Of a stretch of 64,000 nt of DNA, positions 8,581-57,492 are shown piece after piece. Position 1 is the first letter of the stretch. Every line of letters begins with the position of its first letter. This DNA is from Synechococcus sp. WH 8016 (GTDB taxonomy: Bacteria; Cyanobacteriota; Cyanobacteriia; PCC-6307; Cyanobiaceae), in NCBI RefSeq assembly GCF_000230675.1, contig NZ_AGIK01000001.1, forward strand, positions 310,001 to 374,000, written 5' to 3'. The translations under genes and the position numbers were made by a program. The notes beneath the pieces are model-generated. The model saw only the letters and a list, made by a program, of their open reading frames with translations. It made no database searches and was not told the origin of the DNA.

Positions 8581-8787
8581 TCAACCACGCCATGTTGGAT
8601 GTCCATCACTTACAAGAACTCCCCGATTACGCCATAGAGCTTCAGGTGATACCTGAATACCATGTTGAGAGGCTAATTGTGCTGCAGAGGAACTGGTAGG
8701 AGTCAAACGCATTTGAGCAGCAAAGCTCTCATCCTCCTTGAGCAATGCTTTAAGGGCCACAAGTGAGTCACTGGTTTGCGAAGTCAT
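8581..8787 (-). CDS. Nif11-like small peptide
   Basis: 68 residues. The pattern SLVALKALLKEDESFAAQMR followed by a small-residue loop, SSAAQLASQHGIQVSPEAL, matches the Nif11 leader fold: helix, 'x-A-x-x-A-x-x-x-G-(F/I)-x-(F/V)-(S/T)' and helix start. Nif11-type peptides in marine Synechococcus can be leaders of ribosomal peptide natural products. This one has only about 18 residues after the leader region (WRNRGVLVSDGHPTWRG), with no Cys, so it is not a lanthipeptide substrate. AAGGGA lies 6 bases before the ATG. There is no modification enzyme nearby. A decayed relative lies at 56055-56220. Confidence 0.65.
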   Translation of the reverse strand: MTSQTSDSLVALKALLKEDESFAAQMRLTPTSSSAAQLASQHGIQVSPEALWRNRGVLVSDGHPTWRG

Positions 8788-55221: not shown

Positions 55222-55272
55222 CATTGCTTTCAAGCACTTGTGAACTGGGAGATGGTGTGTTCATCCTTGATC
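55222..55272 (+). promoter_or_regulatory. Conserved leader module, copy D (internally deleted)
   Basis: CATTGCTTTCAAGCACTTGTGAA is joined directly to CTGGGAGATGGTGTGTTCATCC; the hairpin's second arm and about 40 bases found in copies A-C are missing. The box itself is intact. In frame it reads GDGVFI and runs into the pilin-like sequence. Confidence 0.65.
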
Positions 55273-55442
55273 AACTCACTGCCATTGTTGGTGGCGCCAC
55301 TGCCATTGAATATGGATTGATTGCAGCTGCACATTCACGACCAAGCAGTGAGCTTAGGTCTAAAACTACAGAAGCAAATCAACTTCCACAAGGATGCATG
55401 AAAACATCTATTGTTAATGATATGCATGTCGGCTATTGCTAA
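55254..55442 (+). pseudogene. Flp-type pilin remnant
   Basis: The frame gives LTAIVGGATAIEYGLIAAAH and then unrelated hydrophilic residues. GATAIEYGLIAA is the N-terminal hallmark of Flp/Tad pilins (G-A-T-A-I-E-Y-G-L-I-A-A, with processing Gly and Glu+5). The hydrophobic stretch that should follow is replaced at AAH, consistent with a frameshift or truncation, and the usual short basic leader before it is replaced by the leader box. No Tad secretion genes are in the window. Probably non-functional. Confidence 0.6.
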
Positions 55443-55481
55443 TCCACCGATACAAGTGGGGTTGTGCTAAAAATGGTATAG

Positions 55482-55808
55482 CTAAGGCCAATTTTCAGGA
55501 TACTCAATGATGATCTCTGGCTCTTTAAGTTTAGATATACATTCCTCATTGATTACCCTATCTACCAACCTGCCAGACCATCTCTCATATTTCCTTGAGT
55601 ATGTAATTTCGCACTCTTCGAGGTAGCCCTTCGTAGAGTCTGAATGCATTACTTCTGATTTAATAATACAGGTATATTGACTCTCTCCTTCCATTGCATC
55701 ATAGACTTCCGGGCCGCATTGCTTTATGGAGCTCTTTAATCCTTGAGCAACGACTGCAACAGGAATAACTAGAGAAACTAGTAATAAATTTGCAGTTTCT
55801 TTAATCAT
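55482..55808 (-). CDS. Small secreted hypothetical protein
   Basis: 108 residues with a signal peptide (LLLVSLVIPVAVVAQ). The mature part has four Cys (IKQCGPEV, YTCIIKSEV, EECEITYS, NEECISKL), suggesting two disulphides, and an acidic end. General look resembles the disrupted protein at 8062 (small, secreted, Cys-bearing, Trp/Tyr-rich), but I see no clear alignment. Function unknown. Confidence 0.6.
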   Translation of the reverse strand: MIKETANLLLVSLVIPVAVVAQGLKSSIKQCGPEVYDAMEGESQYTCIIKSEVMHSDSTKGYLEECEITYSRKYERWSGRLVDRVINEECISKLKEPEIIIEYPENWP

Positions 55809-56054
55809 TGCAGCATTTGATAATCAGAGATTTTGTGGTCGCAAATCAGATCCTAATGCCCTGTAGAGGAGTACAACTCTTTTCTTGCTCATAGGTCAGT
55901 GATTAAAGGCTCCATAGCTTAATCTTGCTCAACATCATCTTGCGACTAGGTCTTGCTTGATCGCGAATACTTTTTAGGACATGATTTACCAATCCCGCCT
56001 TGAGCAGGGTTTTGGCTAAACCATTGCTATGACTACTACATACACTTTGAGTTG

Positions 56055-56220
56055 ATGTCAGAAGAGCCACTCAATGAGTTCTTGAAGAAGGCCAAAGGCG
56101 ATACCAATCTTTAGGGGAAGCTCAATCAGCTGCTGATGCTGATGCTGATGCTGCCGTTTCTAAAAATGTCAATTTGTGATTTCTTCTGATGGCATCTCAT
56201 TGTCTAACCTGTTCCATTAA
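56055..56220 (+). pseudogene. Decayed Nif11-type leader peptide gene
   Basis: Frame 1 from the ATG: MSEEPLNEFLKKAKGDTNL, stop TAG, GKLNQ. Then in a second frame: AADADADAAVSKNVN. Then in a third frame: VISSDGISLSNLFH and TAA. Joined, these pieces give a canonical Nif11 leader (x-x-L-x-x-F-L-x-K-x-x-x-D-x-x-L-x-x-K-L ... A-x-D-A-x-A-A-V ... F-x-I-S-x-x-D-I). One stop and two frameshifts make it a clear pseudogene. A GAT/GCT run (GCTGATGCTGATGCTGATGCT) at the first shift suggests slippage. A degenerate terminator (CCCGCCTTGAGCAGGG-TTTT) lies 40-60 bases upstream. Confidence 0.7.
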
Positions 56221-56342
56221 CTGACTTCTCTGAAGTTAAAAATCACCTGAATGGGGGAAAGCGCCGTGTTTTATACCCCCCGTTAGAGGGATTTGGATTC
56301 AGGTTGTTACATCTACTCTTTGCGCAGGAGTTTCATCAATCG

Positions 56343-57059
56343 ATGTCAGAACAGCAACACTACGTGCGGTCATCATTTTCTAAAAGTGCTACAAAGTTAG
56401 CAGTTTCCATTTTGCAAACAGCAAAGCAGCCTGAAAAAATTTTTCAACACGGCAGATATTTTGCAATCCCAGGACAAACTAAACTGGAGAAAGATTGTAT
56501 TGAAAGAGTTCTAGCCATCCCAAAAGTTCAGGAGCTACTCGCCAACCGGCCTTCACCACTATGGCCAGATCTTGAGCAAATGGCTGCTATGCCTAAAGGG
56601 AGTCTTGGTTGGTGCGTGCATCGCCGCCTGGAGAAACTTGGGCTTTCTTTTTTAGTTGATCAATCGCTGATATCAGAATCCCAAACTGATGAAGAATTCG
56701 CGATAACCAGATTTATACGTTTGCATGAGATTCACCACACGATCCTCGGTCTTCCGATCACAGTCGCAGGTGAAGCTGCTGCGACGGCGTTTTATGCAAG
56801 CACTGGATCAAGCCCCTATCAGATCGGAGTTCTTTCATCATGGATGCTCCGCGGTGCCTACGAACCAAATGAGCACAGGCTGATCTGGGATGCAATCGGT
56901 TTCGGCATTGCAGTTGGCCAGGAGGTTACTGAACTTTTCTCCCCTCGTTGGGAAGATGGCTGGGAACGACCGATTATCGATTGGCAGAATGAACTGGGTA
57001 TCAACAAGCTGCTGATGACATCTCCGTTCCAGGAGGACTTGGAAGACATCTATGCTTAA
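56343..57059 (+). CDS. Coq4-family protein
   Basis: 238 residues from the ATG at 56343. MPKGSLGWCVHRRLEKLGLSFL and FIRLHEIHHTILGLPITVAGEAAATAF match the Coq4 core (H-[DE]-x-x-H zinc-like motif followed by G-x-x-x-x-x-x-G-E-x-A). Coq4 takes part in ubiquinone synthesis in mitochondria and proteobacteria, which this cyanobacterium would not perform; plastoquinone or another lipid role is conceivable. The Asp-to-Glu change in the motif (HEIHH for HDxxH) is noted. Located among peptide-gene remnants, it is probably an accessory gene. Confidence 0.75.
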   Translation: MSEQQHYVRSSFSKSATKLAVSILQTAKQPEKIFQHGRYFAIPGQTKLEKDCIERVLAIPKVQELLANRPSPLWPDLEQMAAMPKGSLGWCVHRRLEKLGLSFLVDQSLISESQTDEEFAITRFIRLHEIHHTILGLPITVAGEAAATAFYASTGSSPYQIGVLSSWMLRGAYEPNEHRLIWDAIGFGIAVGQEVTELFSPRWEDGWERPIIDWQNELGINKLLMTSPFQEDLEDIYA

Positions 57060-57216
57060 ATGTTTCGATTACACCATTTCACTAGGGCTCAAGATGAGAT
57101 TTCAGAGAAAGACTGGAAGGCGTGGCTGGTGGTGGATACAACTGGCTCATTGGAGGTACGCTAGTGACGATGACCTAGTTCAATAAAGGATCTGAGCATT
57201 TCCGATAACATGCGTA

Positions 57217-57417
57217 ATGGGCATATTCACTAATAAGATGGATTGGAAGTCCAGGAAAGGCAAGACGGTTATTTTCTTGCTGTCTCTAAGCGTGATTGTT
57301 CCAATTATTGGCAAGGTCGTTCATCGCTATTCTTCCGCAAAACCTACGTCTTATTCCTCACTTGAGAAAGCAGAGGCTGCATGTACTTGGTGGAGGCAAG
57401 ATGGTTGTTCATCCTGA
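57217..57417 (+). CDS. Small membrane-anchored hypothetical protein
   Basis: 66 residues: short basic head, one membrane helix (TVIFLLSLSVIVPIIGKVV), then a hydrophilic end with two Cys (KAEAACTWWRQDGCSS). No family known. A strong terminator follows at 57493, which supports a real transcript. Confidence 0.45.
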   Translation: MGIFTNKMDWKSRKGKTVIFLLSLSVIVPIIGKVVHRYSSAKPTSYSSLEKAEAACTWWRQDGCSS

Positions 57418-57492
57418 GTTCCAACTCGGCGGTACTTCAGGACCTGGTGGTACGACCTTCTGAGTCAAAGACAAGCAACGAACTACATCACA

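Follow-up and report, generated by a model that had tools for sequence, protein, structure and literature searches.

The closest described relatives of the gene studied here are the precursors of the prochlorosins and synechococsins (ProcA/SyncA, TIGR03798); the evolution of the prochlorosins was reportedly the subject of work by Cubillos-Ruiz and colleagues in 2017. The whole stretch of 64,000 nucleotides that we analysed, hereafter the window (G000:C1:310001-374000, from the 2.69 Mb genome G000), contains a locus that resembles these precursors in its leader letters, its double-Gly site and its conserved 5' flank, whereas it differs from them in that the gene is split in two, carries one stop and three frameshifts, and ends in a core without Cys. 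We consider it very probable that a prochlorosin-type precursor gene (a Nif11 leader plus a double-Gly site), spanning 56020-57178, was split by a segment carrying a Coq4-like gene and then decayed (Table 1).

Related arrangements have been described in picocyanobacteria. According to the account of the IS-bordered nif11 island of Prochlorococcus MIT9313, nif11-domain genes lie there amid variously degraded IS elements (PMC2784084); in that account the nif11 genes border transposases, whereas here a Coq4-like gene lies inside the leader and the insert holds no transposase. For Synechococcus MITS9509, the legend of a figure places a Coq4 gene in one synechococsin cluster (PMC10783134), and that strain and the window are alike in that leader genes of a marine Synechococcus have a Coq4 gene close by, although Coq4 is presented there as a cluster member and the section concerned does not describe a split leader. 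A passage of the same paper reports recombination-related genes near precursors, and the terms pseudogene, frameshift and truncated are absent from its main text (PMC10783134). Furthermore, titles and abstract openings of the open-licence literature on prochlorosin or Nif11 pseudogenes, or on Coq4 together with Nif11, yielded no report of a split leader. The Nif11-type leader family is already known, and interruption is an uncommon cause of decay, yet an ordinary kind of event.

Table 1. Coordinates of the elements of the split precursor locus in the window.
Feature	Position	Strand	Evidence
Upstream flank, kept with some other leader genes	56020..56054	+	blastn alignment starts
Leader 5' half, profile columns 1-48	56055..56196	+	35.3 bits, 0/1000 shuffles; PF07862 match in own genome
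Putative inserted segment, 884 bp	56197..57080	+	complementary flanks at 48|49 or 46|47; gapless join; column test
TCACCTGAATGGGGGA, upstream motif, resembles DNA upstream of Coq4-like relatives	56243..56258	+	by-eye alignment, pattern searches
Coq4-like gene, open frame	56343..57059	+	PF05019 40.4 bits (cut-off 22.9); relatives 3msq and 6e12
Leader 3' half, profile columns 49-66, up to the double Gly	57081..57133	+	24.7 bits from column 49; 0/1000 shuffles (57050-57190)
Core peptide region and stop	57134..57178	+	GYNWLIGGTLVTMT in the window; window and G021 DNA aligned

The 5' half of the leader

The first-pass annotation had recognised at 56055-56220 a Nif11 leader inactivated by one stop and two frameshifts, and both the type and the decay hold. 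With a leader profile of 66 columns and 90 rows (taken from leader loci, overlapping loci included), a frameshift-aware scan of both strands placed 56055-56196 at the top of the window; the other matches above 20 bits were a gene at 8581 (29.7 bits) and the second half described below (27.3 bits), and the best remaining match, which is not Nif11-like, reached 19.7 bits. None of 1000 dinucleotide shuffles attained the score of this piece, the maximum being 17.8 bits for 56055-56220 and 19.0 bits for 56020-56300, and the reverse complements scored 11.0 bits for each of these regions and 8.4 bits for 57050-57190. In the comparison by which the first-pass annotation had proposed to refute the finding, the joined frames gave 49.3 bits when shift penalties were omitted, against at most 41.7 bits in 2000 three-piece random joins of the same DNA, a weak control because random joins often include true pieces. 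The lesions of this half are a TAG at 56112 and the lack of one base near 56129 and again near 56168-56173; the first shift, which had been placed inside the GCTGAT run, lies just before it according to the scan.

Searching the own genome with PF07862 also detected this piece (G000:C1:366055-366129, that is, window 56055-56129, profile 1-25 of 48), in a single frame with the internal TAG and with 19.9 bits against a cut-off of 23.8. It is one of the 5 sub-cut-off matches among the 17 obtained at E up to 10 (12 are above the cut-off), and no other of the 17 bears a stop; 16 of these 17 Nif11 stretches were inspected. When the three frames were joined with an X at the stop, the 5' half rose above the PF07862 cut-off (27.5 bits) and gave 25.3 bits against TIGR03798, below its cut-off of 32.3.

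Homology at the DNA level delimits the piece. The genus contains dozens of matches to the leader stretch, at ~69-87% identity, and some match to window 55950-56500 was found in 18 of the 31 genomes of the genus, counting G000, those in G004, G006, G010 and G024 falling in the Coq4 part only. Window 56000-56345 gave 89 blastn alignments with leader loci, of which 15 start at 56020 and 42 at 56055, and the latest end is at 56191; in the genus-wide search the latest end among the matches listed is query position 247, equivalent to 56196, where the profile also finds its best scoring end (column 48). Because leader homology stops at ~56196, the letters SLSNLFH, previously taken as the end of the leader, belong to the insert. 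A fortuitous resemblance of a repetitive Ala/Asp-rich stretch might be imagined, as the middle part is a GCTGAT repeat, but the shuffles, the whole-window scan and the relative genomes all oppose it and the scores lie outside the shuffle range, leaving it a negligible probability. The 56055-56196 stretch is a decayed Nif11-type leader of prochlorosin type.

The 3' half and the join

The earlier reading had missed that the gene is split and that its double-Gly site and core stand behind the Coq4-like gene, at 57081-57178, so the insertion would be a further disabling lesion. The second-best match of the leader profile on the plus strand is 57063-57133, with a double Gly at its end, and an ELEGVAGG-type leader end is found at 57081-57133; the corresponding frame is open in the relative G021, where it scores 36.8 bits with the leader profile. 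If matches are made to start at column 49, no other place on either strand of the window exceeds 13.8 bits, and if the start is fixed at 57081, the other columns from 41 to 60 give at most 17.5 bits. In 25 of 34 alignments of this piece with other leaders, the first homologous position falls within 57076-57088, and the remaining 9 begin deeper in the piece. The 3' half is one base short near 57112, and it has the double-Gly site after a conserved leader C-terminus that is typical of prochlorosin-type precursors.

On the other hand, the core (GYNWLIGGTLVTMT in the window, GFNWLIGGTLVRMS in G021) has no Cys in either genome and hence not the combination of Cys and Ser/Thr from which lanthionine rings are made in such precursors; lanthionine formation cannot be argued from the preserved core. 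The window and G021 pieces are 80% identical over 20 residues, leader end included. The best matches elsewhere have the leader end in common, and the six that we inspected carry other cores. The comparison with sister strains turned up no intact copy: none with this core is present among the matches listed for 31 genus and 300 family genomes. Nor did it reveal an empty site with one uninterrupted leader between the OprB-type porin gene and LptC, which enclose the locus; no leader match of at least 20 bits occurs at the 28 other LptC loci of the genus, up to 1.5 kb on each side (among the LptC loci, the G021 stretch begins beyond its leader piece).

That the two pieces are complementary can be read directly from the profile. 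Joining the flanks at columns 48|49 yields 60.0 bits and at columns 46|47, six bases earlier, 60.1 bits, and each of the five best consecutive-column joins leaves out 884 bp; the edges of the insert are uncertain by ~6 to 12 bases, which is the resolution of the column test. The joined DNA also aligns with the intact leaders of G005 (L143) and G000:C2 (L001) gaplessly at the join, with indels elsewhere. It could be argued instead that the Coq4-like gene stands between two separate leaders, of which the first decayed as a whole and has its GG site at 56253-56258 (in the frame LTDFSEVKNHLNGG, which starts at 56217 and terminates in GG) and the second has lost its N-terminal half, as tandem leader arrays are known in the genus (L058). 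However, the 56253-56258 stretch overlaps a motif that by eye is like that upstream of the Coq4-like relatives in G006, G024, G028 and G007, the profile scan stops short of it, and the pieces fit each other in column, phase and DNA alignment, and we regard two leaders as unlikely. We favour a single precursor gene, which would have been interrupted by a segment of ~884 bp comprising the Coq4-like gene and its own upstream region, and would have decayed after the interruption. The event was presumably an insertion and not a more complex rearrangement.

The Coq4-carrying segment

The only family match within the insert is the Coq4-like gene, whose product resembles the solved structures 3msq (E 2.2e-13) and 6e12 (Alr8543; E 6.4e-7). 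The metal motif of Coq4 is HDxxH-x11-E, and an HExxH-x11-E pattern is visible here; this pattern and the family match (PF05019) are what the gene shares with Coq4 proteins. It differs from its G021 counterpart by 6 amino acids (NG86 dN 0.013, dS 0.057), values suggesting that it is probably under purifying selection. Relatives at 70% identity or more are present in 10 of the 31 genus genomes and are close to LptC only in G000 and G021, therefore the Coq4-like gene arrived at this locus. A scan of a genome collection with the protein returned four loci, belonging to Synechococcus sp. RCC307 (79% identity), two uncultured Synechococcus and one MAG labelled Akkermansiaceae. Taken with the leader counts of the genus given below, these loci suggest a marine picocyanobacterium of Synechococcus type as the source of the window.

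The region upstream of the gene was aligned with those of 14 Coq4 loci; judged by eye, the similarity is clear for L052, L055, L056, L057 and L058 and weaker otherwise, and DNA homology to G007, G006 and G028 begins at 56274-56277. Read as protein, TCACCTGAATGGGGGA mimics a double-Gly site; the GG at 56253-56258 was considered as the leader's own end and discarded, similar DNA being found upstream of other Coq4 genes. The same 56243-56258 stretch holds a near-palindromic pattern, TCACCNNNNNGGGGGA, with 9 copies in G000 (two of them in tandem at C1:701872, within G000:C1:701872-701920) against 1 for a reversed-pattern control, and with no such excess across ten relatives as a group; it is possibly an operator.

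The insert shows none of the marks of a transposon, since no transposase, terminal inverted repeats or target-site duplication were found in it. A repeat search of 56150-57130 detected 15 families of direct repeats and 10 of inverted repeats, no one of which is represented at both edges, and by eye the edges have no repeat longer than 2 bases in common. The pair CATCTCA/CATTTCA, which lies near the edges, was dismissed as a target-site duplication, as similar letters follow Coq4 in G006 and G028 and the original gene that it implies would not stay in frame.

Of 16 Coq4 loci, the window counted, 6 have a leader or a piece of one within 2 kb (at two of the others the flanks are short), and these six co-occurrences probably reduce to four events through shared ancestry. 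It is an improbable conjecture that this Coq4-like subfamily travels with prochlorosin-type leaders, as a cassette or as a putative tailoring partner, and that the split left in G021 a translationally coupled mini-precursor directly behind Coq4. In G024, another Coq4-like gene is immediately preceded by an apparently N-terminally truncated leader that keeps its GG site (L056:7474-7704).

Decay in two lineages and peptide machinery

G021 has the same insert as the window, the same TAG and the same first frameshift, and each lineage also has damage of its own. Compared with G021, the window lacks one base near 56168-56173 and another near 57112, and its GCTGAT run is longer; G021 is without the sequence of window 55229-56101, thus without the leader's first 47 bp. 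These common and private lesions, which are seen directly in the alignments, imply that decay began before the two separated and continued apart, and the locus has the interrupted frame and the shared or accumulated lesions of a pseudogene. All three shared lesions, the insertion among them, are accordingly older than the separation and the later damage is lineage-specific, with the insertion presumably preceding the point lesions.

The 3' half in G021 is an open 39-residue frame with an ATG directly after the Coq4 stop, and that genome retains 12 TIGR03798 matches, elsewhere or in all (best E 6.2e-23). One might then suppose that the pieces still function, by programmed frameshifting or stop read-through or by translation of the 3' half as a headless precursor from that ATG. 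This we find very improbable: in the window the 3' half is frameshifted and the 5' half carries a stop and two shifts, and G021 lacks both the start of the leader and a LanM match (PF13575; its C39 matches are weak only). The 39-residue frame alone scores 13.5 bits with TIGR03798 (cut-off 32.3). Neither half of the decayed gene is likely to yield a functional precursor now. Leader genes persist in G021 without a LanM match. Near the locus, G021 has a CCRG-2 family RiPP precursor (L052:12282-12473; 25.3 bits, cut-off 24), pieces of which window 55224-55442 and 57381-57463 resemble by eye, with no NCBIfam match; the intergenic stretch may therefore hold other broken precursors.

The first-pass annotation had also proposed former or ongoing use of such peptides, which is plausible, but for reasons other than the gene at 8581 on which it relied. 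That gene (8581-8787, minus strand) is an intact Nif11-like frame of 68 residues that lacks a GG site, reaches 13.8 bits against Nif11 (cut-off 23.8) and has a single relative (38% identity, in G026) among 30 other genus genomes; it is a distant relative of Nif11 and does not bear on the use of such peptides. The support comes from contig C2, which carries at 20-40 kb an intact GG leader gene whose core contains Cys, a TolC-type and a HlyD-type gene, a pair of NHLM-type ABC transporter genes and a 1088-residue LanM (732.1 bits, cut-off 304). The own genome thus contains both a LanM synthetase and a C39-type ABC transporter, as prochlorosin systems do; the best match of the latter, TIGR03796, gives 658.5 bits, under the equivalog cut-off of 853.3, and both C2 transporter genes fall short of the curated cut-offs for the families they match best. 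Such peptides may still be made by this genome, though not from this locus, and with a LanM-type system and its own precursor elsewhere, peptide production may have outlived the loss of this copy.

A PF13575 match is present in 13 of the 31 genus genomes (in G010 a short stretch only), and TIGR03798 matches range from 4 to at least 135 per genome, with 12 in G000; Nif11-type leader matches thus exceed a hundred in some genomes and are few in others. The loss, comparable in two lineages, illustrates one route of copy death, an apparent interruption by an unrelated gene followed by stepwise decay, and a synthetase can persist while precursor copies die. Ordinary single-frame searches see only fragments of such genes.

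Beside the intact leader of the LanM cluster is a gene like REP-associated tyrosine transposases (L075:5894-6676, minus strand; 61.1 bits, cut-off 80). A 3.9 kb contig (L016, G000:C10:1-1566) starts with a leader fragment followed by C-terminal repeats LTKAQSELSERELEGVVGGTVM in two full copies and one partial copy, which are either an assembly edge or a true internal duplication. Finally, a second leader, MSEEQLKAFLEKVQSD..., at L003 (G000:C1:553715-553852, minus strand) has the tail SELGKNGGRGWWLE in place of the usual leader end and is perhaps also decaying.
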